Shown one piece after another: positions 21,101-45,900 of a DNA stretch of 64,000 nt. Under the pieces are notes generated by a model. The model did not search any database, had not been told where the DNA came from, and worked only from the letters and a program-made list of their open reading frames with translations. Positions within the stretch are counted from its first letter, which is position 1, and each line of letters opens with the position of its first letter. Source of the DNA: Bacteroidales bacterium (lineage in GTDB: Bacteria; Bacteroidota; Bacteroidia; Bacteroidales; M50B96); NCBI GenBank assembly GCA_021740905.1, contig JAIOYV010000010.1:1-64000 (forward strand), given 5' to 3'. The position numbers and the translations under genes were made by a program.

Positions 21101-22611
21101 CCCCTACCCCTATTTCGCACACTATAGATGTTGCACAAAACTCAACGATAACCCTCGATGGTAACAATGTGGCTCCTGGTAGCCTGATTGGTATTTTCTA
21201 CAACCAGAGCGGAACTATGGTTTGCGGTGGATTTACCGTTTGGTCGGGAATAGCCACATCGTTGGTAGCTTATGGAGCTACTACCGGACTTGACAATGGT
21301 TTCCAAACAGGTGAAACATTTACCTGGAAATTGTATGAAGCAAGCTTGGCGGTTGAGCATGGTGGCAGCGCATGTTACCTGCCCTTGTATCCCCAAACAA
21401 ATACCTTCCTATCGGGTGGCTCCAGTGCCATCAATTGTTTGAACGCCCAATCTATCGTCATCCATCCCATAAGCTTACCGGCTGGGTGGAGCATCTGGTC
21501 GACTTATGTGACACCGGTAGATCCAAGTATGATCGCTATTTATGATTCCATCGTAAATTTTGTGACCATCGTTAAAAGTGGCTCCGGACTGATTTACTGG
21601 CCTCTTTATGGTGTCAATTCAATAGGAAACATGGTAACTGGGCAAGGCTATCAAGTAAAGATGACCACAGCCAAAATACTATACATGGCTGGAACACTTA
21701 TCGATCCTGTAATAAGCCCGATAAATATACCGAGTGGATGGAGCATCATTGCTTACTTGCGCACTTCGCAAATGGATGCAGCCGCAGTACTCACGCCCGT
21801 TGTAACTTCAATTGTTATTGTAAAAAGCGGATCGGGACTGATTTATTGGCCACAATATGGTGTTAACTCAATTGGGAACATGATACCAGGCCAGGGATAT
21901 CAAATAAAAATGACGCAGGCGGCCACACTTTACTTCCCGGCAAATACTGCACCCTCTTCAAAAAGCGATTACATCCAGCCTCAACCCGAAAAGTACATCG
22001 GAGTGCCTAACACGGGTCATAACATGAGCTTGGGCATCCTCGACGAAGCTTGGGATGTCAGCCCGCAGGAAGGCGATGAAATCGGGGTATACAATGCCAA
22101 CGGTGAGTTGATAGGCAGTGGGGTTTACCAGAATGGTTTCAATGCTATTACCGTGTGGGGCGACGATAGTTCAACAGACGAAAAAGAGTGCATAAGCGAA
22201 GGGCAAAGCTTTAGATTGAAACTTTGGCAATTTGCACAAAACAGCGAGCAGGAGCTTATGGTTGAAACCTGGGCTGTGGGAAATGACAAATATTCGACTG
22301 ATGCGATTAGTGTGATCGAAAAGATGACTGTTGTGAGCGAAGACGGAAATGATTTTGTTCTTTATCAGAACAAGCCGAACCCATTCCAAAATTCAACAGA
22401 AATTGAGTTTTATGTACCGGAAACAAGCCAGGTAAGTATTTCAGTTTTCAACAGCATTGGCGAGAAAGTAAGCGATATTGTATCGAAGAAGTTCGAAAAA
22501 GGAAAATTCAGTGTCACCTTCGATGCAACAGAATTGCCTGCCGGAACTTATTTCTACCAATTCAAATCCGATAAGTTCACCCAAACAAAGGCATTGAGCC
22601 TCGTGAAATAG
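15109..22611 (+). CDS. Giant multidomain surface protein with T9SS sorting domain
   Basis: A 2500-residue secreted protein. Approximate layout: signal peptide 1-28; an N-terminal beta domain 30-205; CARDB-like domains near 207-314, 755-858, 1298-1402 and 1615-1718; two right-handed beta-helix regions (about 315-750 and 860-1294); a LamG domain (1405-1590, 'IEIPNDASLNSTDYTLEAWI'); a pre-peptidase C-type domain (1728-1838); two SprB-like repeats (1842-1988); a doubled module containing 'GSGLIYWPLYGVNSIGNM' and 'GSGLIYWPQYGVNSIGNM' (2118-2284); a linker domain ('WDVSPQEGDEIGVYN'); and a type A sorting domain at 2415-2500 ('NKPNPFQNSTEIEFYVP'). The beta-helix and LamG parts suggest binding or cleavage of polysaccharide, but I see no defined catalytic motif. 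An intrinsic terminator follows. It may be co-transcribed with the LacI-type gene. Confidence 0.8.
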   Translation: MRTSKRRNFKFGIVLLSLFLCISGNLFSQYTIQIGAGTATNGTSGAAPINIYYRSLHCQTIYTAAELTAAGANPGNILEMGYYIYNAPVNALPNFTVKMKHTTATLPTTYDGTGLTQVYLNTLYAPVVNTWDMLTLDTPFLWDGVSNILVDVCFDQVSAWNSSGRVYTYTETNGFRYIRNDYSSQCGVATSSNASTKPQIKFTFAPLYANDAMIDYFVSEAVCEGLTDVSVFVKNNGSANIDTVTVNWSVNNVLQTPVSYTTTIPSFQGATVSLGGYSFTTGNLYDVLAWTSMPNGMADDNTANDTLGLYDITTGTSGTYTIGSTGDFTSFTTALHWLDSLGLCGPVEFLVSPGTYNEQLAITAIAGASTTNTITFTGQGDATKISYSPSASNLPVIGLDAASHFVFDSLLVEVLGAQGWAFNFMNQSDSNTVRNCHITLPGIATEHKGICAINSLDGSVIVGNNANYLLVENNLIESGNQGIHVQGSTPFMTGNKFIGNTLLEFGFIGMNLSSNTQMDVLSNTLTSNIAGARNAITMWPTGILTNVIGNNIYVNSNVANTRLIQVANEVGGGGAGGDIVIANNMVQYAGTSSTEACCIYTKNTSYLKVYHNTTKTASGAGSRGIWLDALGPDTNVELKNNNMASYVSGSNLLIKHASVSAISSNNNFYNPNGFSVYWNTSYTSLSSFQSASGDVGSVSLDPMFVSSTDLHINTANFFLNGLGTPLAAITTDIDGDVRSSITPDMGADEYVLTPNDAGIVNLPGIYGMCPGLTTIVATVACGGSNPLSSVIIDWEIDGVLQTPINYTTLIPVGGFANVTLGTYTFAAGTTYDISVWTSLPNGVADLNPGNDTLALTGVSTSIFGTFTIGATGDFVSFNDAVDHIVSTGVCGPVEFVVDPGTYPERITIPSILGASSANTITFRSMNNDSTSVIMTAGATGSSDNWLVKMDGADYVTFKGIKFMPTNTTYSNSILFLNSAKYNTFTNNYFVAPGTGTSTNQAHVRCEDVNSSYNTVSLNRFTSGSTAVFMKGVSASSSLNGVNIWGNIIEGFQWYGIRLEYVNSPIVDANEVTSSVSGTGTKMGISIIYANDSLRVTRNKIVLSNFSNTQGINLENIVSTANSKGLIANNFVSILNGTNFTYAVRMYLNCHYQDIYYNSVYVNGNSSSDTRGLNIIGGGNNRVFNNNVMSVRYPTLYEGVPSPVIASDYNNFYSTNSAYAYYPNTWMNYTSLAALAAATGFETNSISVDPNFLSTSNLHAFNTDLIGAAMPFPEITEDIDGQLRDSLAPTIGADEFMMLAIDAGIIQIVGPTGMLIEGQTQIPVVILKNFGTSDLTSCDISYTVGGIPSGSYTWTGLLAQSQTDTVELPGFIVPGSAQQLCAFTELTGDLEPVNDMACMSFDPLPNACNYAMQFDGNNDWIEIPNDASLNSTDYTLEAWIKPSAFSWLDGIISRYPGSGPSGYVLRLSPTSPYNKINFNEADANYTLSTNTWYHLAAVRANGVNTVYINGVAYAVAGNAMSGANNALIQIGCDYNERYWNGLIDEVRIWGTGVSQADIIEWANKPVTATHPNYANLMGYWNFDQPSSAMVPDQKNSNDGIIHEAIFVTSDAPFVCAQYDASIASIISPISGAYLTSTEIVTVEIENGGLDSISNFGVGFSVNGIGVTETISDTIAPGSTLLYTFTNTANLFQTGYGTYDFCAYTMLSTDEYTPNDTLCSPVTNYGAGMACSTALPYEFVNDPAVTDSISSGESGWWELNVLGDYTNVAISLCGSSFDTKLELYNSCTGASIASNDNSCGTQSQLDIPTLFSGTTYYVRVFGATQSAFGNYTLNITGTAAAPFNLLFDPTMVSCNGAADGSIDLTVFNIIGVPPFSFVWLTGDTSEDISGLAAGTYLVTVSDSGGSSVTGQVVITEQAALSNSATATGVTAIGANNGSITNSVSGGTAPYTYLWSNGATTANIENVYAGNYSVIITDANNCQLIETIYIPTPVPTGWQVTPTPISHTIDVAQNSTITLDGNNVAPGSLIGIFYNQSGTMVCGGFTVWSGIATSLVAYGATTGLDNGFQTGETFTWKLYEASLAVEHGGSACYLPLYPQTNTFLSGGSSAINCLNAQSIVIHPISLPAGWSIWSTYVTPVDPSMIAIYDSIVNFVTIVKSGSGLIYWPLYGVNSIGNMVTGQGYQVKMTTAKILYMAGTLIDPVISPINIPSGWSIIAYLRTSQMDAAAVLTPVVTSIVIVKSGSGLIYWPQYGVNSIGNMIPGQGYQIKMTQAATLYFPANTAPSSKSDYIQPQPEKYIGVPNTGHNMSLGILDEAWDVSPQEGDEIGVYNANGELIGSGVYQNGFNAITVWGDDSSTDEKECISEGQSFRLKLWQFAQNSEQELMVETWAVGNDKYSTDAISVIEKMTVVSEDGNDFVLYQNKPNPFQNSTEIEFYVPETSQVSISVFNSIGEKVSDIVSKKFEKGKFSVTFDATELPAGTYFYQFKSDKFTQTKALSLVK

Positions 22612-22694: not shown

Positions 22695-25600
22695 TTAGAT
22701 TTCGATCCTGAACTCAGCACCAATATCACTATTGGCCACACTGAGACGACCTCCCATATTTTTTTCAATAATGGCCTTTGACATGTAGAGTCCGAGACCA
22801 GTGCCTTTGCCTTGCTCTTTTGTGGTAAAATAGGGCTCGAAAATATGATGTATAATCCCATCTGGCACTCCCCCGCCATTATCGGAAATCAACACGACAG
22901 TTTTAGATTTATGTTGCTTCAGGGTAATTTTGATTCTTGGCTCCTTAATTTTCTTTTCCAGAAAAGCATCCTTTGCATTTACCAGGATATTTAAAATCAC
23001 TTGGGAAAATTCATTAGGAAAGCCTTCTATAAGTACATCTTCCTTAATTTCGTTTTCAACTTTGATATTATTATGCACAAAATTGTGGGCCAAAAAATTG
23101 ATCGTTTTTTCAACGGTCTCCTTTAGGCTGAATGTGATTTTCTCATTGTTGGGCTGGAAAAAATTCCTGAAATCGTCGATGGTTTCCGACATAAAATTGA
23201 TAAGCTCGGTAATTTTCGTCACCTTGTTGTCGAGGTAATCTGATGTCATAATGCCCATTTCGTAGGCATTCTTAAAATTCTGGACAATAAGGCCCAAACT
23301 GTTAATAGGTTGCCTCCATTGATGAGCAATATTGCCGATCATTTCCCCCATGGCCGCTTGCCGCGATTGTTTTATGAGCATGTGGTCACGTTCGCGCAAT
23401 TCCTTTACGGCATCAGTCACCTTCCGTTCCAGGTTATCGTGTAGTTTTTTCAGTTCTGTATTGGTTTGCTTCAACCTTTCTTCGGTTTGCTTAATATCGT
23501 TGATGTCGCGCCCCACTCCCTGTATTTCGACTGTATTGCCATACAAATCTTGAATGGCGTAAAAATCCCACATAATGCAACTTTCAAGTCCATTAAGTTT
23601 CGTATTTTGTTCTAAACGGACCCTATACGGGGGTTTATCAAGCCCTGCTATGCTTTTTGTCAAAAACTTCGAATCTTCTTTACTGGCAAGGGTTTTATAA
23701 TCGGCACCCAAAATGTGATCAGCTTCTAAATTGAATTTTTTGCAATAGGCATCGTTGGCAAATGTAATTTTCATGTCGGATGAAATGCGGATCACCAGAT
23801 CGTTTTGCGACTGGATAAGCCCCCTGTAGCGGTCCTCGCTCGATTTTAGGGCTTCGAGGTTTTTCATATTTTCGGTCAGGTCGCGGCTTACACCGAGCAA
23901 GCCCAGGATTTCACCGGCTGAGTTATAGAAAGGGGTTTTTATTGTTTCGAGCAACACCTGCTTGCCCTCAGGGATTTTTACCCAGTCTTTATGACGGTAG
24001 GTCATTTTTCGTTTCACCATTTCATCATCGTTTTCCTGGAAAAATTTGGCCATCTCCCCAGGGAAAAGATCAAAATCGGTTTTGCCAATTATTTGCTTGG
24101 AGTTTTTGCCTACAAAGTTTTCAAACGATTTGTTATGGCCGAAATACTCACCTTTTACTGTTTTGTAGAATATCAGGTCGGGAATGTTATTGATAACCGA
24201 ATCGAGCAAGGACTTTTGGTAAGAGATTTTCTCTTCATCCTTTTTGCGTAATGTAATATCTGTGTGTGTACCAACCATTCTCGAAGGTTTTCCATTCATG
24301 TCCCAATCTACGATACGGCCACGCACCAAAATCCAAAGACGGTCGCCCGATTTTGTGATCATCCTGAATTCCCCGTCGAATTTTTCTGTTTTGCCTTTAA
24401 GGTGATCTATCAATAGTCGGCTAAACCTTTCGTAATCATCAGGGTCGATAAGGCTTTCCCATGTATTGAAAAGGGGTGATAAATCCTTTTCATCAAAACC
24501 CAACATAGCCATCCAACGAGGGCTAAAATACGTTTCGCCAGTAGTGATATTCCAATCCCAAAGACCATCGTTCGAACTGGTTATAGCCATATTCAATCTT
24601 TCTTCGTTGACCCGCGCCAATAAATCCTGTTGATTTTTTATCATGGCGGTCGAAAGGATCATGGAGGCTGTTTTCAGCAAGGGAATTTCATCCAGCGACC
24701 AGGAATCATCTGCATTTACATGATCGAAGCCGAGAAATCCATACAATTGTCCATTAAGGTGAATAGGTATGGCCACAGTGGCATTGACCCCCATTGTTTC
24801 CATACGACGTTTTAAACCAGTTGCTTCGGCGGGCAGTTCGGATGCTGAGTTCAAAAAAGTGGCTTCGCCCTTCCTTAGCTGGTCCATAAGCCATGGAAAT
24901 TTGCTTATTGATAATGCTTTGCAAGCCTCCTTAGGCTGATAAGTATGGGGATTGCACCATTCATGGTGGTTTTCGAGGGTTCCATTTTCCTTATTTAAGG
25001 TATAAAGATAGGCCCTGCTGGCTGATCGGATTTTTCCAATCACAGCTAAGCTGTGGTTTATGGTTTCTGTAATATTTTTGGATGTCAGCAACATGGTTGC
25101 AACCTCCGAAATTGCTTTGTTGATATTGTTTTTCCGAAGCAACGACTGTTCCGATTTTTTAATATTGGTAATATCCTGAATGGCCGATAGATACACATCC
25201 TGCCCCCCAATCTCTATAGGCAAAATGGTCAATAATGCCCACAAACTGGAATTATCTTTTTTCCTAAGCTCTACTTCCTTGCCAATTACTTTGCCTTCGA
25301 ACAGCAGGTTTTGGTTGATCTCATATAAAAGCTCGTGCTTGATGAATAAACCAGGTAAACTTACGCCCTTCATTTCACCATTGTTGAACTGGAGCATTTG
25401 GCTCAGGGTATTGTTGGCCATTATATATCGCTGGTCTTTCGAGATTATGCCAATCCCTGTTGGGGCATTGTCAAAAAGCACACGATATCGTTCCTCGCTT
25501 TCGCGAAGGGCCACTTCGTATTTTTTTCGGTCGCTGATATCATTGATAATCGCTTGGTAGAGCGATTTGTCGCCATGTATAAGAATAGGGGCAACATGTA

Positions 25601-26291
25601 CCGAAAAGTCGATGCTGTTCCCTGTTTTCAAAGAATAGTGTAGCTCTCTCTCTACCACTGTGTTATTTTCCATGCAACGCATAAAGGAAGCCGTGATGCC
25701 TGAATTGATAAACGGGATAAACTCATAGATATTCAGGTCTGACCTGGTTTCGGGGTCAACCACGTTTAGGCTACGGAGCAGTTTGTTGTTGTAGTCAAGA
25801 ATATTTCCCTGCTGGTCGATAATTACAATTCCGAGAGGGGCCGATTCGAAAAGGGTGCGGTAGCGTTTCTCGTTTTCGAGGATGAGTGCATTTTGTTTTA
25901 CTACTTCTTGTTGAAGGAGGAGATTGTGGTTTATCCTCTGAACTTGTTCGAGTAATTTTTCCGGGTTGATGGGTTTTATCAGAAAGCTATTCACGCCTAA
26001 TTCAATAGCCTTTACAAATTGGTTGGTTTCCTGGTTCGATGAAGTGATGATGCAATTAACACCCTTGTCGATTTCCCTGATATGGGCAATCATGTCGAGA
26101 CCCGACATAATGGGCATGGATATATCAGTGATAACCAAATCGGGCCGGTACTGCTTATAAATTTGCAGGCCCTGCTCGCCATTATCGGCTATGTATACAG
26201 TTTCGAATTTTTTTTTCAGAAAAGATGCAATCAATCGCTGGGTAAGCGTGTCATCCTCTGCATAAAGAATTGAAATGTTCAATTTATCCAT
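22695..26291 (-). CDS. Receiver-PAS-GAF sensor histidine kinase
   Basis: A cytosolic-looking sensor kinase of 1198 residues with no transmembrane segment. Order: receiver domain 1-125 (acidic E12/D13/D14, phospho-acceptor D56 in 'LVITDISMP', K106); PAS about 143-265 and 268-390; GAF about 395-560; PAS about 575-695, 700-820 and 825-945; coiled coil; HisKA with H990 in 'IGNIAHQWRQPINSL'; HATPase with 'LNILVNAKDAF', 'LISDNGGGVP' and 'GTGLGLYMSKAII'. The receiver is N-terminal, the reverse of common hybrids, so it may take a phosphate from another kinase and gate this one. It lies 153 bases downstream of the appendage operon on the same strand, and an NtrC-type regulator lies upstream of that operon, so the two could be partners; that pairing is inference. 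Confidence 0.85.
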   Translation of the reverse strand: MDKLNISILYAEDDTLTQRLIASFLKKKFETVYIADNGEQGLQIYKQYRPDLVITDISMPIMSGLDMIAHIREIDKGVNCIITSSNQETNQFVKAIELGVNSFLIKPINPEKLLEQVQRINHNLLLQQEVVKQNALILENEKRYRTLFESAPLGIVIIDQQGNILDYNNKLLRSLNVVDPETRSDLNIYEFIPFINSGITASFMRCMENNTVVERELHYSLKTGNSIDFSVHVAPILIHGDKSLYQAIINDISDRKKYEVALRESEERYRVLFDNAPTGIGIISKDQRYIMANNTLSQMLQFNNGEMKGVSLPGLFIKHELLYEINQNLLFEGKVIGKEVELRKKDNSSLWALLTILPIEIGGQDVYLSAIQDITNIKKSEQSLLRKNNINKAISEVATMLLTSKNITETINHSLAVIGKIRSASRAYLYTLNKENGTLENHHEWCNPHTYQPKEACKALSISKFPWLMDQLRKGEATFLNSASELPAEATGLKRRMETMGVNATVAIPIHLNGQLYGFLGFDHVNADDSWSLDEIPLLKTASMILSTAMIKNQQDLLARVNEERLNMAITSSNDGLWDWNITTGETYFSPRWMAMLGFDEKDLSPLFNTWESLIDPDDYERFSRLLIDHLKGKTEKFDGEFRMITKSGDRLWILVRGRIVDWDMNGKPSRMVGTHTDITLRKKDEEKISYQKSLLDSVINNIPDLIFYKTVKGEYFGHNKSFENFVGKNSKQIIGKTDFDLFPGEMAKFFQENDDEMVKRKMTYRHKDWVKIPEGKQVLLETIKTPFYNSAGEILGLLGVSRDLTENMKNLEALKSSEDRYRGLIQSQNDLVIRISSDMKITFANDAYCKKFNLEADHILGADYKTLASKEDSKFLTKSIAGLDKPPYRVRLEQNTKLNGLESCIMWDFYAIQDLYGNTVEIQGVGRDINDIKQTEERLKQTNTELKKLHDNLERKVTDAVKELRERDHMLIKQSRQAAMGEMIGNIAHQWRQPINSLGLIVQNFKNAYEMGIMTSDYLDNKVTKITELINFMSETIDDFRNFFQPNNEKITFSLKETVEKTINFLAHNFVHNNIKVENEIKEDVLIEGFPNEFSQVILNILVNAKDAFLEKKIKEPRIKITLKQHKSKTVVLISDNGGGVPDGIIHHIFEPYFTTKEQGKGTGLGLYMSKAIIEKNMGGRLSVANSDIGAEFRIEI

Positions 26292-26444: not shown

Positions 26445-27041
26445 TTATAATATTTCGGTTAGGATAAAATCTATGGTTGTTTGATAGGTTCCTTTTTTAA
26501 AATTTCCTTCCAGCAATGAAATGGCGTTTGTATTCCCGTTACCTGTCCCCATTTCCCAAAAAACCTCAAAAGCATTATCTTCGTTTGTACCTGCATTGGT
26601 TTTTTCTGCTTTAGTCAATACAATAGCTGGCATATTTGTCAAAGCAACAGGATCGTTTTCAGCGGCAGTGCTAATCCGTTGCGATCCGTAATTCCCTGTA
26701 AGACCAACTTTGTAACCTACATAATTAAGGGGAATGGAGTGTTGTCCGTCGGAATGTGTTAGTGAATCCTGGGCTGATTTTATCGATAATTCCCAGTTTG
26801 CCGTTGAATAGACAGATCCCTCAACGGAATTTTCGCCATTTTCGCCTAGCCCATTTTGATAATCGCTCACTGTGTTAAAGTCGAAAGTAATAACTGTATT
26901 TTGGATGTCTAAAGATAAAGTGGTATTCAAATTAGCGGTTAAAACAAGTTGGGCATTATCCTGAACTTGTGCCACTATCAGGTTTGATAGCAACACTGTT
27001 AAAATCAAAATAATATGTTTTCCAGTAAAATTCAATTTCAA
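26445..27041 (-). CDS. WxL-like small secreted subunit, copy 3
   Basis: A 198-residue exported protein, last gene of the appendage operon. Residues 1-25 are a signal peptide. The mature part is all-beta in appearance and shares four features with the other two small proteins of the operon: 'DYQNGLG' near residue 60, a W-x-L motif ('ANWELS', W83-L85), 'FWEMGTGNGN' near 160, and a final strand 'GTYQTTIDFILTEIL' that ends the protein. The last strand has the alternating pattern of pilin-type or WxL-type Ig subunits. It starts at a TTG 32 bases after the MORN-repeat gene. Its place at the end of the operon would suit a tip, adaptor or minor subunit. No database family was confirmed. Confidence 0.65.
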   Translation of the reverse strand: MKLNFTGKHIILILTVLLSNLIVAQVQDNAQLVLTANLNTTLSLDIQNTVITFDFNTVSDYQNGLGENGENSVEGSVYSTANWELSIKSAQDSLTHSDGQHSIPLNYVGYKVGLTGNYGSQRISTAAENDPVALTNMPAIVLTKAEKTNAGTNEDNAFEVFWEMGTGNGNTNAISLLEGNFKKGTYQTTIDFILTEIL

Positions 27042-27073: not shown

Positions 27074-28285
27074 TTATTCTACTAATACAGGCAATTCTTC
27101 TTCAGTTCCTTCTTCTATGCCAAATTTAAATATTTTTTCATCAATCAACGCACCTTCTTCATTATATTCTTTGCAAAGCCCATTCAATAAACCTTTTTTG
27201 TATTTCAATTTTCCTTTTATTATACCATTTTCATGGTATATCAACCATACACCAACTTCCGCGTCGTGTTTATACTTGCCAATTTTTGAAAGGTTACCAT
27301 TTTCGTGATAATATTTCCATTTTTTTTCGGCCTTGCCTATTTTATATTTGCCAACCTGTTTAAAGTTTCCATTTGGATAATACACGTTCCATGTTCCATG
27401 AAATAAGCTATATTTATAATTTCCAATAGTATATAGACTCCCATCAGGATAAAAAAACTTACCCATGCCGGTTTTCACACCTTTTGAATAAAAACCGGTT
27501 TCGCGCAAAACCCCTGTGTCGAAATATTCGTTCCAAATGCCCTCGATGTTGCCATCCACATAATTACATTGAATATCTATTTGGCCATTGGGGTGATAAG
27601 TGAAATAGTCCCCAAATATTTTATTATCCTTGAAAAATATCTTTTTCTCAAGAGAGCCATCTTTTCTATATTTAAGGTATTCCCCATCGTATTGCTCTCC
27701 ATTTTTAAACGCTTTTTCTTGAATAAGTCCAGATTTATAATAAAGTTCATACAAACCCGAATATTTATCCTCATTAAAATTGAATCTAAAATAAGGTTTG
27801 CCATTTTCGTAATATCCTTCTGCGGGACCATGTTTTAGTCCTGTTCGATAATGTGTTTTTTCTTTCAACTGGCCATTCTCGTAATAGGAAATAATTTCGC
27901 CATCCAACTGGTCTTGTTTATAGGTACCATTTTGTTTCAGTTCCCCATTTTGATAATAAATGGCAAAATCCCCTTCGCGTAAACCATTTTTATAGTTTAA
28001 GATTTTATAGCGGATACCATGCTTGGAATAGATGCTCCAAACACTATCGAGGTCGTTGTTCTTATAGTATCCAAATTGTCGTTTTGTCCCATCTGGGTAA
28101 AAGTATTTGAAAAAACCATGACGAATTGTTTCTCCATTTACTATTTTACATTCGTAAATTGATTCAGGATACCTGCCGTCGTCGTGCCAGGTAGTATCTA
28201 TAAATACCTGAGCAAACCCACAACTTGGCGTAGTTAATATAAGAAAGATCCAGAAATAAAGATGTTTTGTTAAATATATTTTCAT
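27074..28285 (-). CDS. MORN-variant (YwqK-like) repeat protein
   Basis: A 403-residue exported protein. A hydrophobic start (residues 1-26, 'FWIFLILTTPSCGFAQ') is a signal peptide; a Cys at 22 does not fit a good lipobox. The rest is about a dozen repeats of 22-24 residues with the pattern YY-x-NG-x-x-K-x-x-G-x-Y-x-x-G-x-x-x-G (for example 'YPNGNFKQVGKYKIGKAEKKW' in part), the MORN repeat variant also called YwqK-type. Such proteins form elongated beta-hairpin stacks; the toxin-antitoxin label seen in databases for this family is not supported here. It is embedded in the operon, 9 bases after the chaperone-like gene and 32 before the third subunit, so it probably serves the same surface structure, perhaps as scaffold or anchor. 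That role is inference. Confidence 0.75.
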   Translation of the reverse strand: MKIYLTKHLYFWIFLILTTPSCGFAQVFIDTTWHDDGRYPESIYECKIVNGETIRHGFFKYFYPDGTKRQFGYYKNNDLDSVWSIYSKHGIRYKILNYKNGLREGDFAIYYQNGELKQNGTYKQDQLDGEIISYYENGQLKEKTHYRTGLKHGPAEGYYENGKPYFRFNFNEDKYSGLYELYYKSGLIQEKAFKNGEQYDGEYLKYRKDGSLEKKIFFKDNKIFGDYFTYHPNGQIDIQCNYVDGNIEGIWNEYFDTGVLRETGFYSKGVKTGMGKFFYPDGSLYTIGNYKYSLFHGTWNVYYPNGNFKQVGKYKIGKAEKKWKYYHENGNLSKIGKYKHDAEVGVWLIYHENGIIKGKLKYKKGLLNGLCKEYNEEGALIDEKIFKFGIEEGTEEELPVLVE

Positions 28286-32090: not shown

Positions 32091-32699
32091 TTACAGCACT
32101 TCGCGAAGAATAAAATTTATCGTTGTTTGATATATCCCATGTGCATAGCCAGCAGTTTGAAAATCGGTTGAGTTCATATTTCCGTTATCGGTACCCATTT
32201 CCCAGTAAAAAATAAAAGCGTTGTCCAAATCATCACCGGCATTCGATTTGTTTTTGTTTTTAGGCTCCAACAATTTATATTCAGTTAATTGCAAAGCTTT
32301 GGGATGATTCTTGGCATTATTAGTCAAATCACCGTTCCCATAGTTTCCAACCAGATCAACCTCAATTCCCACCTGATTAATTGGAATTGTATTCATACCA
32401 TTATTGTGCACTAAATCGGATGATGCGTAAATGGCCAATTCCCAGGGCACATTTGCATCTACACTGGCCGAAAAATAGTGATCATGATTTGCACCTATCC
32501 CATTCTCGTAATCCGAAATAAAATAAAAATCAAAAACTACTTGAGTTGCATTAAGTGTAAGCGAGACAGAAGAAACCGTAGTGGGAGACGGTGAAACAGA
32601 AGGACAAATAATCGTGCTTTCGTTGGCGAGTTTGGGTTCGTTTCCGGCAACCAGGCACACAGGCAACAATAGCAAAAATAGATTTAAAACTGTACGCAT
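32091..32699 (-). CDS. WxL-like small secreted subunit, copy 2
   Basis: A 202-residue exported protein with signal peptide 'MRTVLNLFLLLLPVCLVAG'. The longer frame begins at a TTG (32723), but a TATATTTG box overlaps it, so the ATG at 32699 is used. It shares 'DYENGIGA' (near 63-70), W-x-L in 'VPWELAI' (W86-L88), 'YWEMGTDNGNMN' and a last strand 'GIYQTTINFILREVL' with the other two subunits. A Thr/Ser/Pro-rich stretch follows the signal peptide (about 32-46), a feature the others lack. It is the first gene after the internal terminator and lies 112 bases before the usher-like gene. Probably a minor or anchoring subunit of the surface structure. Confidence 0.65.
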   Translation of the reverse strand: MRTVLNLFLLLLPVCLVAGNEPKLANESTIICPSVSPSPTTVSSVSLTLNATQVVFDFYFISDYENGIGANHDHYFSASVDANVPWELAIYASSDLVHNNGMNTIPINQVGIEVDLVGNYGNGDLTNNAKNHPKALQLTEYKLLEPKNKNKSNAGDDLDNAFIFYWEMGTDNGNMNSTDFQTAGYAHGIYQTTINFILREVL

Positions 32700-32720
32700 A
32701 TTTTTTATCCAATTTGGTAT

Positions 32721-32728
32721 CAAATATA
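32721..32728 (-). promoter_or_regulatory. -7 box for the second part of the appendage operon
   Basis: TATATTTG on the minus strand matches TAnnTTTG and lies directly after the terminator at 32739-32782 and 21 bases before the ATG of subunit copy 2. No TTG at the right spacing was seen. It would let the usher, chaperone and later genes be transcribed without read-through. Confidence 0.45.
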
Positions 32729-32738
32729 ATCAAACTGT

Positions 32739-32782
32739 ACAACAAAAAAAGACCCTCCTGAGAGGGTCTTTTTTTTGTTGTA
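32739..32782 (-). terminator. Strong terminator after the first subunit gene
   Basis: GACCCTC (32751-32757) and GAGGGTC (32762-32768) form a seven-pair stem with a four-base loop. A- and T-tracts on both sides extend the pairing and supply the U-run on either strand. It lies 36 bases past the stop of the first small subunit and separates it from the rest of the operon. This suits a major subunit made in excess, with partial read-through. Confidence 0.8.
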
Positions 32783-33450: not shown

Positions 33451-33522
33451 GTTTTCTAAATTTTTAAGTTGATACTAATTTGTTTATTTTAATTTTTAAA
33501 GTTTTTTCGTTGAATGACCTAT

Positions 33523-33538
33523 TTCAATGCACGTGCCA
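33523..33538 (-). promoter_or_regulatory. Sigma-54-type promoter of the appendage operon
   Basis: Minus strand TGGCACG-N4-TTGAA matches the sigma-54 consensus TGGCACG-N4-TTGCW at all but one position. The transcript would begin near 33512, about 60 bases before the ATG of the first subunit. The gene for a sigma-54 activator lies just upstream on the same strand. Confidence 0.65.
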
Positions 33539-33607
33539 TGAACTATAATTATTTGAATATATGACACTTATGCAAATTTCATTGAAGCCATATAGTATGG
33601 TGAAGTA

Positions 33608-33622
33608 TCTGATTTCGAATAG
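33608..33622 (-). promoter_or_regulatory. Putative activator site 1
   Basis: TCTGATTTCGAATAG, read on the plus strand, is one of three copies of the same 15-base pattern in this 475-base intergenic region. It lies 70 bases upstream of the -24 box. Confidence 0.5.
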
Positions 33623-33690
33623 AGGAGAGGATTTCGGTATGTTAAATTCATAAACAAACATTTCATATACAGTATCTTGCGCCAATATTA

Positions 33691-33705
33691 TTCAATATCG
33701 AATAG
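33691..33705 (-). promoter_or_regulatory. Putative activator site 2
   Basis: TTCAATATCGAATAG, the second copy, extends to a 14-base near-palindrome (ATTCAATATCGAAT, two mismatches). It lies about 150 bases upstream of the -24 box. Confidence 0.5.
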
Positions 33706-33709
33706 GGTC

Positions 33710-33724
33710 TTCGATTTCGAATAG
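33710..33724 (-). promoter_or_regulatory. Putative activator site 3
   Basis: TTCGATTTCGAATAG, the third copy, has dyad symmetry TTCGA-N2-TCGAA and starts 19 bases after site 2, about two helical turns. Paired sites of this kind suit a dimeric NtrC-type activator. Confidence 0.55.
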
Positions 33725-33830
33725 TTGAAAATTTGTGCATTGATTAAGGGAAATAATTTTCAAAAAAAAAATGGGATAGCTAATTTATCCAATTATAAAA
33801 GATTGATTTTATTTGCATTACGGGGCAATA

Positions 33831-33858
33831 AAAAAGCCAGAAATAAATCTGGCTTTTT
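33831..33858 (-). terminator. Terminator of the NtrC-type regulator
   Basis: AAAAAGCCAGA and TCTGGCTTTTT pair over 11 bases around a six-base loop, with a T-run on either strand. It lies 68 bases past the regulator's stop codon and isolates it from the appendage operon. The rest of 33451-33925 holds the sigma-54 promoter and three sites, and no gene. Confidence 0.8.
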
Positions 33859-33925
33859 AACATTATAAAGTGGAAAAAAAAATGCAAACTGTAACAATAC
33901 TGAGTTTCGATTTTTTTGACCAGGA

Positions 33926-35293
33926 TTAATTAAGCTGAAACTTGGCAATCTTGCGGTGCAGGGCATTCCACGAGATATTCAGCAACTTGGCAGCCTGGCT
34001 TTTGTTGTTGTCAGACTTTTCGAGGGCTTTCAATATCAGGTTGCGCTCGTTTAGTTCAAGGTCGAAAATTTCAGTGCTGTGGCCGTTCCCGCTCCCATTT
34101 TTTGGAAGGATACTGGGGAAGTGCTCGGCCTTTATTGTTTTGCCTTCCGAAAGGATGACTGCCCGTTCGACAAGGTTTTTAAATTCTCTGACATTACCTG
34201 GAAATTTGTAGTTGTCGAGCACATCGATTGCCTTATCTTCAATGTGGCTTATTTCCCGGTTCATCTTGGCAGCAAACATCGTCGAAAAATAATTCAATAA
34301 TTCAGGGATGTCCTCTTTCCTTTCACGAAGGGGTGGTATGTGAATGACAAAGGCGCTCAGGCGATGGTAAAGGTCGAGCCGAAAATCCCCACCTTTGCTT
34401 TGTTCTTCAATATTATGGTTGGTGGCTGCAATAATCCTGATGTCAAAATCAATCGGTTTTTGGGTCCCGACCTTGGTATATTTTCGCTCTTCAAGTACCC
34501 GCAACAATTTCTTTTGAAGGATAACCGGCATATCGCCAATCTCATCGAGAAAAAGTGTGCCTTTATGCGCGACTTCGAACCAACCTGCCTTATCCTCTGT
34601 TGCCCCTGTGAACGATCCCTTTTTGTGTCCAAAAAATTCGCTCTCGAAAAGATTTTCAGGAATGGCCGAACAGTTGACAGCATAAAAAGCGTGGGCCTTT
34701 CTTTCGCTAAGTTGATGGATGCCTTTGGCTACCAATTCTTTTCCTGTCCCACTTTCGCCTGTAATCAACACGGAAGTATCTTTAGCCCTGGCCACCTGTT
34801 CCATCGAATGTAAAACACTGTCCATTAGTGGGCTTTTGCTGATTATTTCGACCCCCTCAAAGGAATTCAGTTTTTCCTTCAGAAGGCTATTGGTCTGTTC
34901 GCTCTGGTTCAATTTGCGCCGCACCACAATATATTTTTTGGTGCGCTCGATTGCCATCATAACTGTTTGCAGGTTGATGGGTTTTTTAAAATAGTCGATG
35001 GCCCCTTTGCGCATGGCTTCAATAACGCTTTCCATTTCGCCATGCCCGCTAATCATCATAATTTCTATGTGGGGGTATTTTTCTTTTACCGTTTGAAGTA
35101 GGCTCAGGCCATCGGTTTCGGGCATCTTAATATCAAATATGGCAAGGTCGATGTCATGCGAATCGAATAATTGCAATGCTTCCGATGGCAAACCTGCTGT
35201 GAATACTTTAAACCCATTCAGCGATAGGAACTCATCAAGTTCTTCGCGAACATACTTTTCATCATCTAAAACCAGGATATTTAATACGTCCAT
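33926..35293 (-). CDS. NtrC-family sigma-54-dependent response regulator
   Basis: A 455-residue transcription activator with the standard three parts. Receiver 1-120: acidic D10/D11, phospho-acceptor D54 in 'LAIFDIKMP', Lys in 'YFKKPIN'. AAA+ domain about 140-380: Walker A 'GESGTGKE', the sigma-54 contact loop '[12 protein letters not shown]' (GSFTGA variant of GAFTGA), '[10 protein letters not shown]' (Walker B). C-terminal Fis-type helix-turn-helix: '[20 protein letters not shown]'. The longer frame starts at 35323, but the ATG at 35293 gives the normal receiver start. No kinase gene adjoins it. The operon directly downstream has a sigma-54-like promoter and three repeated upstream sites, so that operon is its likely target. 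Confidence 0.9.
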
Positions 35294-35305
35294 GTAATCT
35301 TTTTT

Positions 35306-35327
35306 GCTATTGATTCTTTTCAATAGC
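35306..35327. promoter_or_regulatory. Perfect 8-bp inverted repeat before the NtrC-type gene
   Basis: GCTATTGA and TCAATAGC surround TTCTTT, starting 12 bases upstream of the ATG at 35293. It could be an mRNA hairpin or an operator; nothing else supports either reading. Confidence 0.35.
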
Positions 35328-35408
35328 TTCTATACATGGCAAGGCTGCGTTTTGTTACAGAATATTGGCTCTTTAATGATGAAAAATTCGGATCAAAATA
35401 AGGAAAAC

Positions 35409-35630
35409 TTATTCATCATCCTTTTTCTTAAATGGCTCGCGCAACAATATGTTGTAGATGAAGAGCACCAAAATGGCGGCAATGAATACCACAAATAGGG
35501 TCTGCATGATTTTCCAGATCACATCTTCCAGGTCGATCAGGCCCCAAACCGAAAAGATGGCGATGAAAGTTGAAATCATTACAACTACTATTAGTATGTA
35601 GCTTGCTACTTTTTTTACTGCATTATCCAT
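35409..35630 (-). CDS. Small two-TM membrane protein coupled to the ABC importer
   Basis: A 73-residue protein with two hydrophobic helices (about 9-31 and 41-62) and a charged tail ('REPFKKKDDE'). Its ATG overlaps the last eight bases of the ATPase gene, which indicates translational coupling. I do not recognise a family. A regulatory or accessory membrane subunit of the transporter is possible from position alone. Confidence 0.6.
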   Translation of the reverse strand: MDNAVKKVASYILIVVVMISTFIAIFSVWGLIDLEDVIWKIMQTLFVVFIAAILVLFIYNILLREPFKKKDDE

Positions 35631-39935: not shown

Positions 39936-42900
39936 ATGACTATGAAGCACATTATCTCTATTGCATTTGTAACGCTGATGGCCAGCTACTGCATTGGCCA
40001 GGACACTTTAATCCATTCTGCACAAGATTCTTTAATGGATAAGTTTGGTTATTACTATCATACGGATGATATTAAAATTCCGATAGATACCAGTGATAGC
40101 AAGGCAAATTCGTTTCCCAATGCTGTGGTTGCAGGCTTTTTCAGGTTACATTTTTATGATAAAATTTATAGCACTGGTATTGGCTTTGACGATCAAACCC
40201 AGGCCCAAGCCCCTTATTCTTCCTATACAATCGGGGAATTAAGAATTGAAGTAATAAAGAGGGTATTTGAAGATTTATGTATATTGATAAGACCTAACGG
40301 TGAATTACCTGATCCATACCCAGATGAATACTATGCTATGCTACCTAATGATTATTTTCCAAATTCAAGATATGTTGAAATTGCAATTTTGGAATCAGAT
40401 TCAGGACTTACCACTACAGGATATTTTAACAATGTCTATTTAATTGGTGACTTTTTAGCAATAAGTAGCCCATTTTATTTTAATGATGAATTATTATATA
40501 GTGGTGTTGTTCATAATGAGATTTGGGAATATATCAATGCAGGTTATGATACCCACGACTTTGCAAGGAACTTCACTGGTTATGATAGTATCCCATATTC
40601 TCAAATTGAAGTATTACCACATGGGTACTTAAAATTTAATTTTTATAAACCAGAAATGGATACTTCAAATATTGATCTGTATTTAAATACACCACAATAC
40701 ATATATGACTTGTATACCATATGTCTGCATGAGGCAGTCCATTTATTAGGATTTGTTTCATTTTTCGACAATACAATTTATTACATGAGTTTTGGATATT
40801 GCACTGCATGGTATGGCACGAGCAGTAATTGTCCAGGTCTTTTTACTGCTTATGATCATTTATTGCAATATGACAATAATTTTGTGGTAGAGAGCACGGA
40901 TTGCTACACAAGTGTGGCAGATTCTGCACTATTATCAGCCGATATTGTATATAGCTGTAATAATGAATATTTAACATTTTGGGGGATTGACAGTCAATTG
41001 GTTTATACAAATTCTACGTTTGCACCAGGGGAGAATTATTGTCATTTTAATTGTACACCACAAAGCGGATATGTGATGAACCATTCCTACGTAGAGCAAA
41101 CTAGATCATTACATTATAAAGAGGTTCAAGCACTAAGTTTATTGGGCTATAGTGTTACTGGAGAATTTGGAACTGGGATGAGTTGGTGCGGCCAAAACGA
41201 TTCAATTGCGGCAATTACTTATACTTGCCAGGTGGATACTCAAAATATTGTAGCCGGTTGCCATGATTACAGGTATTATTCGACCGATCATTTAGGTAGT
41301 TATTTATTTCCAAATCCCAGTAATAGCAAAGTCAGAATACCTGTTGCAAGCTTATTGGCAAATGATTATAATGCCGATTATATATGTTGTTTTGAAAAAC
41401 TGGATTTTTACAATGCCTTAATAAATTTTAGTGTAATCACAGCAACATCTACCTTGGATTCATTGACTTCCCATGATACTATTACCATCGAAATACCAAT
41501 ATATGAGCCCTATGTTTATTTATTTCAGTATGTGCCCAAAAACAGTTTTGGAAAAAGAGGAAACCGTACGCTTGTATTTTTCAGACCTGAAAATTTAAAT
41601 ATTTTATACTGTTCCCAATATAGTAATTGCGACAACTTGATTTGCCATGGCGATTTCGAAGATTTTGAGAACCTGCAACAATTTAATGATGAATTGTTTA
41701 TTACCAAAAATAATGATTTTCCTAATTTTGCCAGGAAAAACAATTATCCGCTTTATCAATATCTTTCAAGCACGGAAACGGTTTACAGCGGAAGTCCATT
41801 TTTAAATAGTAATCTTTATGTTTCTTTAAACCCAATTTTTAATCCGGCAAATAATGGTGGTGAGAAATTTGGTTTTTTCCACGGAAGTGCATCATTGACA
41901 TTTAAAACAAAACAAACTATCGATCCCAATGGGCATTATAAGATTACATTTATTGCAAGAAACAAAGAAGCAAATGTAACTACAAATATCAGGTTCTGGG
42001 GGGGTGAAACCCAGCCCTGTTGCAAAGGAAACGCTACCATTGTAAATACTACATTAGGTAGCACTACGAGTTGTGGTGCCTGTGGGTTACCTGACTATAC
42101 AACAAATTTCTCAAATTCAACAATTAATGTAACAGATACAATTTGGGTGGAATATTCTTTGGATATCTTACCAGGTGATGCTATTGGACCAGTTAATTAT
42201 TTATCTGTGTTTTCTTATGGTACTTTTGGCATTGACAACATCGAAATAGAAGAAGTTAAGGATTTTGATATCAGCATTGGTAATTTATCGGATACCACTC
42301 CATGTATCGGGGTGCCATTTTCCTGCGAAATTTATCTGTGCAACAACGACACATTTGATAGTGCCGATAGTGTGACAATCTTTATTGAACTGCCTCCTTT
42401 TATAGAAATTGTACCCAATGCTTATTTCGATGCGTCCGGTACGTGTATTGTCCCGGCTGATTCGCTTGTGTCGCAGTTTTGTTACGAGGTAAGTGTTGAA
42501 TTAATGGCGAACGAATACTGCATCCCCCATAACACCGTTTTCCTGCCTGTTAGCCTATCCTCAGAAAGTTGCTGGCAGGGAGAGTCGGGCATTAGCTTTG
42601 TGCCGAACGATAATACTTTAAGCATTACCAAAACGGTAGTTGGGGATACTATAGGGTACAAGCCCGGAGATGAGGTTGAATTCCTAAACACAGTAATCAA
42701 CAACAACGATGTGCCGGTAAATAATGTAATTATTCAGGACACACTGCCCACCGGATTGATTTATTCACCCAACAATACAGAATTTGACTCCCTTTCCATT
42801 TCCGTCTGTCAATTGACTAATCCATTGCTATTGGCCCCTTTCGATACAATTTCTTTTTCTTTTTTTGCAGTATTTTCCGATACAGGTACCTGCAACCCTC

Positions 42901-45900
42901 CCTGGGTAAACACAGCATGGATCACCGACGCGGAAGAGATTTGTTATTTACCCACTGGCGATTCGGCTATGGTTTACCAGAATGGTTTTGGACTAAGTTT
43001 TACATCGACCAGTATGTGCAATCACGACAATGATATTGAAGTTGTCCCTGTGTCTGTTGCCGGGCCTTTTGATTTCTTGTGGAGCACGGGGGCAACAACA
43101 CAAACAATTACAGTATTTGGGGTTGGGGAGTATTGTGTAACAGTTTCGAAGACAAACGACCCATCGTGCTTTGCCACGGGGTGCCATAGCAATGTCCCTG
43201 TAATCAATGATTCTGTCATGACTACTTCATCGCAATGTAACAATTGCCTGGGCACTGCCACTGTGTACCCTTATGGGGGAATTTCCCCTTACTCCTATTA
43301 CTGGAGTACCGGTGATTTTACACAAAGTATCGACAGCCTGTGCAGAGGGGACTATCCTGTTATTATCTGGGATAGCTCAAATTGCTTTTTTTTCGATACA
43401 ATAAGTATTGTGGACAGTCTTGGTTTCCGCTTGATAGGCTTCGATGCCAATTGCCCCGGCGATAGTTCCGGTTATTTCTCAATCCTAATGTTTAATCCAG
43501 CCAACCCTACCACTTTTTACTGGTCAACCGGAGATACTTTAGTGCTCACAAGCGGTAGTTCAATCCTTTATCAAAACTTACCGGCCGGGGTATATTCGGT
43601 TACTATTACTGATAACAACGGCTGTGTGGGATACGGTACCGGCACCATTTCGAACCTCTATAATTTTTATGCTGAAGTCATTAATATCACAAATGCCACA
43701 TGTGCTGATACCTGCAATGGAAGTATGGTGGTGGAATTAATTAACTATAACCTGCCATTGAATTTTAATTACAACCTGTCAAACGGACAATCAATCTACA
43801 CGTCAAGTATTAATCAATCATTTCAGGATCTTTGTACCGGCATTTATTCCCTTACCGTATCGGATACTATAGGCTGCACCCACATCATCGATTCCATAGA
43901 GGTGGACGTCGAAACCTTAGACTTTTTTTATACTGTAGTTGCCCCCTATTGTACACCAACCGGTGCAGGAGAAATTGATTGCTTTTTATCAGGTTGGGTG
44001 CCTCCATATAGTTATTCATGGAATACAGCAGCAACCACCCAGGATATCTACCCAACACAAACAGGAACCTACACTGTCATTGTTACTGATGCAATGGGAT
44101 GCAAAGATACATTGCAGTGCGTCATTGAATCACAGGATATCATCCTGTTAAATGAAAATGTAATATCTCCCACTTGTGAGTATTATCTTTCGGGGTATGC
44201 ATCTGTTTCTGTTTCCGGAGGTCAGTCTCCATATAGTATACTATGGGGCACAGGAGAGAACTCTTTTGAGTTAGTACAGCTATCAACAGGAGGATACACG
44301 TACACCGTAACCGATGATTATGGTTGCACAGGAGAAGGGGAAATAATAATTACAAATGAAAATCTTTTATCTGCAACATTGGATGGCCTTCCGCCATTAT
44401 GCGACAGTTCTGCATTAGGGTCAATCCAATCCGAAGTAAGCGGAGGTATTTCCCCTTACCTTTACTATTGGAGCAATAGCGAAACAACATCCGAGATTAA
44501 TAACCTTACGATAGGAACTTATTCCCTTACTGTGGTGGATAGCATTTATTGTTCAGATGTTGTAAACTATGAGTTCCCTTATCTTTGGCTTGGTTTGGAT
44601 ACAAATATCCTAGGACAAGGCTGTGACGGCATTTACAACCACCCTTCGGTTTATCTGACCAATGGGGAGATACACATAGAGGCAACCGGTGGTACCCCTC
44701 CTTATGAGTATATCTGGAACAACGGTTTCCCTATAACCGATTTTTATGAACAATCAGATAGCACAGCATACACAATTACAGTAAGCGATGCAAACGGTTG
44801 CCAGGCAACAGCCCTAATAAGGGTAGGCTCCGACCAGGAAATATTATTAAAATACAGCTGGTCACTATATTCTACTTATATAACACCTTTTGGAAATCCA
44901 TATATTTCTGAAACCTTTATTGCACAGGGTTTGGAAAATGAAGTTTTAGTTATTAAAGATGGCAACGGGAATATTGCTTGGTGGCCCGATGTTAATTACG
45001 ATCCACATATTGCTTATGCTATAGGTGCTGGTTATCAAATCAAAATGAACTCAGAACAAACATATTACATTAAAGGACACTTGGTATGCCCGGAAGATAA
45101 TGAAATGAACTTAAGCCCTAACTGGAACATCCCTGGCTATTTACGAACATCTGCCAGCCCAATTACTACCGAATTTTCATCCTTTTATCAGGATATAATC
45201 ATAATTAAAGACGACAGCGGATTGGTATACTGGCCACAATACTCATTGTTTCAGTTTAACGATTTGCTACCTGGCGAAGGCTATCAGTTGAAGGATTCGA
45301 GTGCCCATAGTTTTTATTATACTTCAAATTCAATCTTGTCCGGAACAAAAAGCCATATCTGGAAATCTCCAGACCAGTTTCATTATTTTATTGATACGTC
45401 CAATTTACGCACCGGTACAAATATGATATTGATGCTGCCTAACGAATGCTGGGAAGAAGTACCTGGAATCGGTTCCGAAATTGGCATAATTGGCGAAAAT
45501 GGACAGTTGACTGGCAGGGCTATTTTTGATGGACAACATACGCCTGTGCTTATTTACGGCGATGATATTACAACGCCAAATGAAGAAGGATTAGCGGAGG
45601 GTGAAAGTTTTACAATCTCTGTTTGTGAACCGGCCAGCAAAAATAGTAAGTCTCTAAAGATAAACAGATGGATAAAAGGAAATGATATTTTCTCGGAGGG
45701 CAAGGTAAGCATTGCTGGAAAAAATAATGTAGTGGATGTTCTGGATAATAAAGACAAGGAGATTGTAATTTTATTTCCCAATCCTTCATCAGGTACTTTA
45801 TGGCTACAAATGCAATTAATGGAAAACCGGCAAGTTAGTTATCGCATATATAGCTTTGAAGGTAAAAAAGTCTATGAAATGGCTAATATTGATATGTTTC

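Follow-up and report, generated by a model that had tools for sequence, protein, structure and literature searches.

Enhancer-binding proteins of the NtrC/PilR type combine a receiver, an AAA+ domain, and a Fis-type helix-turn-helix (HTH), and they use palindromes located 100 to 200 bp upstream of −24/−12 promoters; PilR controls type IV pili. In sigma-54 promoters studied elsewhere, the C at −12 is conserved. Within the Bacteroidota, −24/−12 promoters are known from the sigma-54 regulon of Flavobacterium psychrophilum, in which promoters with the SM4 motif were reporter-tested at the surface adhesin operon remFG-sprCDBF and others precede lon and other chaperone genes, lon and htpG being among the listed targets; the accessible part of that report describes neither an activator site nor a pilus target (PMC9723704). 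A class-wise survey of sigma-54 promoters gives the consensus TGGCAC-N5-7-TTGCT and includes ABC transporters and chaperones among the targets in Bacteroidia; in the available portion of its text, the string "fimbri" is absent and "pili" occurs once, for type IV pili (PMC12316311). A literature search over titles and the openings of abstracts gave, among the matches listed, no paper about pilus control by an NtrC-type activator in Bacteroidota, nor any containing the word DUF4402. Judging from these searches, descriptions of sigma-54 activator-operator pairs in Bacteroidota seem to be scarce.

Here, we analyzed a 64-kb stretch of Bacteroidales DNA (the window), in which a 475-bp gap (33451-33925) separates the gene of an NtrC-type activator from a minus-strand gene run opening with the gene of a secreted 210-aa protein (Table 1). 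It is very probable, at roughly 85%, that this gap would serve as an activator-dependent sigma-54 control region, a pilus switch, because a like arrangement is found next to pilus genes in related bacteria; across other families of the order, it accompanies orthologous activators and mostly lies before pilus-type genes. A preliminary description of this DNA had already put forward such a control model for the appendage operon, and it is supported by the presence of rpoN, by a complete activator, and by a palindrome and −24/−12 element recurring at near-fixed spacing. The biochemistry is that of a classical NtrC-type system, with the same domain order and upstream palindromes as in NtrC and PilR, whereas the operator (TTCG-W4-CGAA) and the class of pilus differ. 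As far as the literature searches tell, novelty lies in the operator, in the subfamily of activators, and in the pili as targets in Bacteroidales.

Table 1. Positions of the control elements, of the neighboring genes, and of related operator sites
Feature	Position	Strand	Basis or remark
Sigma-54 type −24/−12 promoter TGGCACGTGCATTGAA	33523..33538	-	Sequence, shuffles, similar elements in related promoters
Proximal candidate activator palindrome, minus-strand sequence TATTCGAAATCAGATA	33606..33621		Core 10/12; 69 bp from −24 element
Distal candidate activator palindrome TATTCAATATCGAATA	33689..33704		Sequence
Distal candidate activator palindrome TCTTCGATTTCGAATA	33708..33723		19 bp from the 33689-33704 site; tandem sites in relatives
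NtrC-type activator: receiver, AAA+ with GSFTGA loop, Fis-type HTH, recognition helix WNALHRK	33926..35323	-	Domain search and sequence
Terminator-like hairpin with T-run after activator gene	33830..33860	-	−15.1 kcal/mol, z −5.95
First target gene, pilin-like secreted subunit, 210 aa	32818..33450	-	Fold matches
Strong terminator/attenuator-like hairpin between first and second subunit genes	32744..32775	-	−26.7 kcal/mol, z −7.28
Second pilin-like subunit	32091..32723	-	
Usher-like beta-rich protein, 946 aa	29138..31978	-	Fold matches including FimD and PapC, low TM-score
Periplasmic-chaperone-like protein, 276 aa	28295..29125	-	21% over 104 aa to chaperone-like protein of G035 operon
MORN_2 repeat protein	27074..28285	-	Often beside chaperone-like gene in relatives
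Third pilin-like subunit	26445..27041	-	
Hybrid receiver/PAS/GAF/histidine kinase, end of gene run	22695..26291	-	Domain search
Sister operator sites	L165 5063-5166, L162 4663-4768, L169 9756-9858, L161 9602-9711, L164 7411-7502		

The promoter had been described as a minus-strand TGGCACG-N4-TTGAA sequence one base off the consensus, and direct reading of the sequence bears this out: TGGCACGTGCATTGAA (minus strand, 33538-33523) departs from TGGCACG-N4-TTGCW by a single C-to-A change at −12. It keeps GG-N10-G with a TGGCAC-like −24 element and has TTGAA where TTGCW would place a C. No other site within one mismatch of the consensus is present in the window. In dinucleotide shuffles of the gap, a one-mismatch −24/−12 element appeared in 0 of 4,000 on this strand and in 4 of 4,000 on either strand. 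The genome search for sigma-54 promoters that had been recommended gave a divided answer: the window site is the sole exact TGGCACG-N4-TTGNA in the 6.54-Mb genome, whereas the pattern as such, with 26 + 26 sites at up to one mismatch versus 24 + 32 in the reversed control, shows no genome-wide enrichment. With the G taken as −13, the transcript start would be predicted near 33512, 62 nt upstream of the ATG. The shuffle result on this strand and the near-fixed spacing that recurs in related promoters make it very improbable that the −24/−12 match arose by chance and that an ordinary Bacteroidota sigma-A promoter in the gap drives the pilin gene. The long, AT-rich gap would offer room for one, with a TTTG/TANNTTTG pair (two mismatches) ending 93 bp upstream of the ATG, a TTG/TANNTTTG pair (one mismatch) ending 310 bp upstream of it, and a 9/12 sigma-70-like match at 33576-33548 (such matches number 35 versus a shuffle mean of 41.6); against this, the 475 bp contain no exact TANNTTTG box on this strand.

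The adjoining gene, previously noted as an NtrC activator, indeed encodes a complete response-regulator/sigma-54-activator/Fis-HTH protein, in which a receiver is joined to a Sigma54_activat domain with a GAFTGA-type loop (GSFTGA) and a Fis HTH. The genome (6.54 Mb, 97% complete) contains one copy of rpoN (E value of 6.6 × 10−53), the absence of which had been named in advance as a reason to abandon the model. RpoN carries ARRTVAKYRE, which we take to be the RpoN box. Among named genomes, rpoN is best matched in metagenome-assembled genomes of Bacteroidales (up to 70%), on which the assignment to this order is based. Sigma54_activat gave ten matches above the cut-off in the genome, seven of them strong. 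Upstream of the activator gene, no palindrome core with up to two mismatches was found, and the activator does not seem to regulate itself via the 33523-33538 site. A small membrane-protein-like open frame (35400-35622) lies directly upstream of the activator gene and is possibly cotranscribed with it.

The preliminary description also listed three upstream copies of a 15-base motif. Their presence was confirmed, the 15-mer TTCGATTTCGAATAG matching at 33608 (two mismatches), 33691 (two), and 33710 (none), whereas the direct-repeat unit did not hold, 16-bp palindromes giving a better fit. The likeness of the three 15-mers is by itself weak and no better than in shuffles, as their mutual similarity was reached by 205 of 300 shuffles of the gap. 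Since such similarity alone is common in shuffles and the core recurs as a palindrome in relatives, the direct-repeat reading was dropped. On the minus strand, all three copies have the exact 8-mer CTATTCGA in common; any 8-mer with at least three G/C present three times was seen in 7 of 4,000 gap shuffles. In the double-stranded reading, the copies are 16-bp palindromes near TATTCGA-WW-TCGAATA with the core TTCG-W4-CGAA. They carry two (33606-33621), one (33689-33704), and one (33708-33723) mismatches, and the first is half-degenerate, with one good and one weak half. Two TTCG-W4-CGAA cores within one mismatch arose in 6 of 4,000 gap shuffles, a figure for a motif picked after the data had been viewed. 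The three sites lie 69, 152, and 171 bp before the −24 element, with centers near −101, −184, and −203 relative to the predicted start.

The suggested genome search for the 15-base site showed no genome specificity (531 places at up to three mismatches versus 276 in the reversed control), and the palindrome at up to three mismatches was found at 642 places versus 412 in the control. Seven genomic palindromes were listed within one mismatch: two are those of the window, a third (L041) falls in a space between called frames, and the remaining four are inside frames, two of which are short. As neither the 15-mer nor the palindrome is specific in the genome, the sites gain their meaning from context and comparison, not from rarity.

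Relatives were sought by two routes, through homologs of the 946-aa protein and through orthologs of the activator. The 946-aa protein had matches in 23 of 149 genomes, its own included, with usher-like homologs 18 to 23% identical, and no match in a scan of named genomes. The 20 loci of these relatives (9 to 20 kb each) contained no full NtrC-type activator and, in a few cases, short receiver proteins. Footprinting on the pilus genes themselves was dropped because the homologs were too distant and their 20 loci lacked such an activator. Since no close relative carrying the same operon was found among the 946-aa homologs, the case for conservation is built on orthologs of the activator, which adjoin a different pilus, of the DUF4402 type.

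Within the order, the best matches of the activator are 45 to 57% identical. In G035, G034, and G088, its neighbors are DUF4402-type subunit genes (that of G034 below the Pfam cut-off), with chaperone- and usher-like genes also near the activators of G035 and G088. A palindrome with the core seen in the window accompanies a −24/−12 element in each of the three: TCTTCGAAAACGAAGA with TGGCATATTAGTTGAT in G034, CCTTCGTTTTCGAAGA with TGGCACATCTATTGTT in G035, and TCTTCGAAAATGAAGA with TGGCACGATCATTGCG in G088. These three genomes served to define the motif; G189, G208, G241, G251, and G392 did not. The latter were retrieved with the G034 activator as the query, which matched 10 of 393 genomes at an E value of 1 × 10−150 or better and also led to longer G110 flanks and G217. 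In a tree of 37 activators, the window protein groups with those of G034, G088, G035, and G110 at a support of 89/80 (the tool's mark being 95/80).

A common layout, in which a palindrome is followed after 66 to 87 bp by a −24/−12 element and after a further 55 to 94 bp by the ATG of a pilin-like gene, was found in G034, G035, G088, G208, and G241. The G208 locus comprises two tandem activators, seven subunit-like genes, one chaperone-like gene, and one usher-like gene. Of the upstream regions of five of its subunit genes, three have a −24/−12 element: TTGGCACGGATATTGCT and CCGGCACGTATATTGAT, each 67 bp past a 10/12 core, and TTGGCACAAATATTGGT, 66 bp past an 8/12 core; subunit genes 6661 and 11392 are without a convincing one. 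The palindrome of G241 is paired with TGGCATATGGTTTGTT before a DUF4402-like gene (below the cut-off), and that of G189 with CGGCATGAAAATTGTT before the gene run that encodes its receiver, kinase, and activator. The G035 chaperone promoter, 66 bp past a palindrome, is weak (6/11). In G251, two tandem palindromes precede a large secreted-protein gene without a convincing −24/−12 element there, and around the G110 activator neither intergenic palindromes nor pilus genes were found. Almost the spacing of the window is seen in G392, where sites 67, 137, and 155 bp (69, 152, and 171 bp in the window) before TGGCACGAAAATCGG (TGGCACG-N4-TCG) occupy the gap (L186 10500-10748) between a WNAL activator and a 699-aa lipoprotein-like gene for a secreted, non-pilus protein; its proximal site TCTTCACCAATGAAGA has good outer halves and an 8/12 core. 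In G208, three more palindromes lie 21 bp apart (L182 5412-5469), 293 to 335 bp before a DUF4402 promoter, as a possible distant enhancer array.

Measured from the core to the T of TGG, the distance is 69 bp in the window, 68 bp in G034, 66 bp in G088 and G189, 67 bp at the two better promoters and 66 bp at the poor one of G208, 67 bp in G392, 78 bp in G035, and 87 bp in G241. These steps of about 10 bp suggest that the sites lie on the same helical face. Tandem sites are 19 bp apart in the window, 20 bp in G035, 21 and 21 bp in G208, 22 bp in G251, and 18 bp in G392.

We compared 36 loci of orthologous activators, 9 with the recognition helix WNAL and 27 without. Palindrome-bearing loci have WNAL-H/Y-R at this helix, and the others have WQSLDRR, RQALDRR, RDALIRK, and similar; G110, inside the clade of the window protein, has SKTLSKK and no strict site. 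Strict palindromes were present within 10 kb in 8 of the 9 WNAL loci and in 0 of the 27 others (Fisher P = 3.0 × 10−7, L186 of G392 included), a count that, like the related ones, followed the definition of the motif and drew on loci differing in length, the non-WNAL loci L112, L117, and L119-L125 being only 3 to 4 kb long. With L186 left out, there are 12 strict sites in 8 WNAL loci (120 kb; 7 of 8 loci) versus none in 27 (327 kb) (Fisher P = 1.2 × 10−6, binomial P = 1.4 × 10−7). This 35-locus count omits L118 (the same locus as L185), the paralogs L090, L091, L093, L095, L161, and L169, the second activator of L141, and the genome's own paralogs in L092 and L094, which aligned too short for the tree. 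Under a looser rule (core with up to one mismatch, between genes), the figures are 8 of 9 versus 2 of 27 (P = 1.3 × 10−5), L127 and L142 having one such core each. When context is disregarded, both groups have many cores (22 in 140 kb versus 26 in 327 kb). The L184 palindrome misses the strict rule; L186 combines a WNAL helix, a strict site, and a window-like promoter. Pilus-type genes are within reach in 6 of the 9 WNAL loci (the window, L138, L140, L141, L182, and L184) and in 0 of the 27 others, with L138, L140, L141, and the window having supplied the queries; L181, L183, and L186 are the WNAL loci without pilus genes within reach.

Site and recognition helix thus co-occur across loci, and the adjacent activator may well bind the site. 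That strict palindromes track the helix (8 of 9 versus 0 of 27) and stand upstream at enhancer distance makes it unlikely that the −24/−12 promoter is real and the palindromes serve another regulator, e.g., a repressor, even though palindromes are a generic format and related TTCG-W4-CGAACA sites precede other operons with no WNAL activator in the fetched stretches.

Such sites came to light when a composite pattern was run over 393 genomes of the order, giving 14 hits versus 1 in the reversed control, 3 of the 14 having been used in its design. In its strict form, the pattern misses the window itself, the proximal site of which is only 10/12 to the core. Among the other 11 hits, three are inside genes (G014, G211, and G351), two are without a near start (G227 and G363), and six lie shortly before a likely start (G257, G391, G145, G198, G196, and G270), although at five of these six sites there is overlap with a mechanically called frame, almost complete in G270. 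The stretches fetched around the 11 show neither a WNAL activator nor a pilin next to the hit, and the core is therefore not exclusive to this subfamily. In G257, G391, G227, G145, and G196, the core continues as CGAACA or TGAACA, and a sister operator, TTCG-W4-CGAACA (or TGAACA) 66 to 84 bp before TGGCAY-N5-TTG, can be discerned in other Bacteroidales; the sister sites of L162 and L169 precede ABC-transporter-like operons, the latter ending with an activator gene. When a more stringent composite was run over 395 genomes of the class, 15 of which are the own genome or belong to the same order, one genome had a hit. A composite built on a half-site had 5 hits in the own genome, including the window, versus 1 in the control; L299 is a lead only.

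The base at −12 varies in these promoters, being A in three, T in three, G in two, and C in two of the ten found at WNAL loci. In six TTGGCAY-N5-TTG sites outside long frames in the own genome, it is A in four, G in two, and C in none, and some of these six may be chance matches, as the pattern had 26 genome hits versus 24 in the control. By these counts, a missing C at −12 would be usual in this lineage, and C at −12 is probably a poor criterion for its sigma-54 promoters, which suggests that scans demanding TTGC at −12 miss sigma-54 promoters in this order. Four own-genome candidates have TTGA at −12, near position 1501 (L191, L201, L199, and L189), and the genes after them were taken to encode Lon, Hsp20, a phosphate-binding-like protein, and a lipoprotein, respectively; the L199 candidate shares sequence with a 76-aa frame. 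The lon and hsp20 candidates fit the targets given in the accessible part of the F. psychrophilum report (PMC9723704), and lon and htpG, as read from their translations, likewise follow candidate sites, at L191 in this genome and at L167 in G270.

From the comparison, one subfamily of activators emerges together with its candidate operator, a rule for the spacing, and a class of targets (surface pili). It is about as likely as not that the WNAL-H/Y-R proteins form an NtrC-like group with its own operator code (TTCG-W4-CGAA on one helical face, about 67, 78, or 87 bp upstream of −24 and in many cases joined by a distal tandem pair) that is reused for different pili and other secreted proteins with a dispensable −12 C, i.e., an undescribed type of Bacteroidales regulon. 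The link between pilus genes and a two-component signal gives an experimental handle on uncharacterized Bacteroidales pili.

The gene run resembles the CFA/I-like branch of chaperone-usher pili in having, by fold matches, pilin-, chaperone-, and usher-like genes together, and differs in giving no usher or pilin match in a Pfam search of the window proteins; it is too distant for membership. The model of the first subunit (pLDDT 83.7) best matches TLP-1a/TLP-1b (E value of 1 × 10−4), followed by glycosidase domains and the CfaB, EcpA, and CooA pilins (E values of 0.005 to 0.03). For the 946-aa protein (pLDDT 80.0, pTM 0.48), Foldseek placed FimD third (E value of 5.2 × 10−11) behind two ciliary proteins, with PapC lower, TM-scores of 0.2 to 0.3, and other barrels matching too. 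The 276-aa protein gave no PapD_N match and no PDB sequence match at an E value of 1. Given the weak fold matches, the low TM-scores, and the ciliary proteins and other barrels in the list, we call the run pilus-like and do not assign it to the chaperone-usher family. Chaperone-like and MORN-repeat genes are also paired near usher-like genes in L072, L073, L075, L079, L080, L084, and L070.

The strong hairpin after the first pilin gene, which has T-runs on both strands, may terminate much of the transcript, and this suggests an output split between that gene and the remaining ones: the first pilin may receive most of the transcription from this promoter, and the assembly genes would be reached by read-through, which attenuators downstream of major-pilin genes often permit. 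It is possible, if rather doubtful, that the promoter makes mainly a short first-pilin transcript and that the other appendage genes have promoters of their own, an arrangement compatible with the switch. The stability of the hairpin (−26.7 kcal/mol, with a T-run) and the gaps that follow the first and the second gene (94 and 112 bp) would suit it; the later gaps, however, contain no palindrome core with up to two mismatches, and these gaps and the region upstream of the activator gave no −24/−12 match except one with three mismatches before the kinase gene.

For the pilus switch, we propose the following course, of which we infer the binding, the transcript start, and the kinase pairing. The activator would be phosphorylated, perhaps by the hybrid kinase at the opposite end of the gene run, a candidate partner by its position only. 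Its dimers would bind the palindromes, i.e., the tandem pair near −184/−203 and the weaker one near −101, an AAA+ ring would assemble, and the DNA would loop to RNA polymerase-sigma-54 waiting at the −24/−12 element. Remodeling of this complex by the activator would let transcription begin at the predicted start. The hairpin would then end much of the transcript, giving an excess of the major pilin, and read-through would supply the usher-like, chaperone-like, and minor-subunit genes. The hybrid kinase has a receiver, several PAS domains, and a GAF domain, and large kinase-like genes also flank the WNAL activators in L138, L140, L181, and L182. Two very large open frames with signal-peptide-like starts, 15109-22611 (2,500 aa) and 39936-46013 (2,025 aa), flank the whole region.
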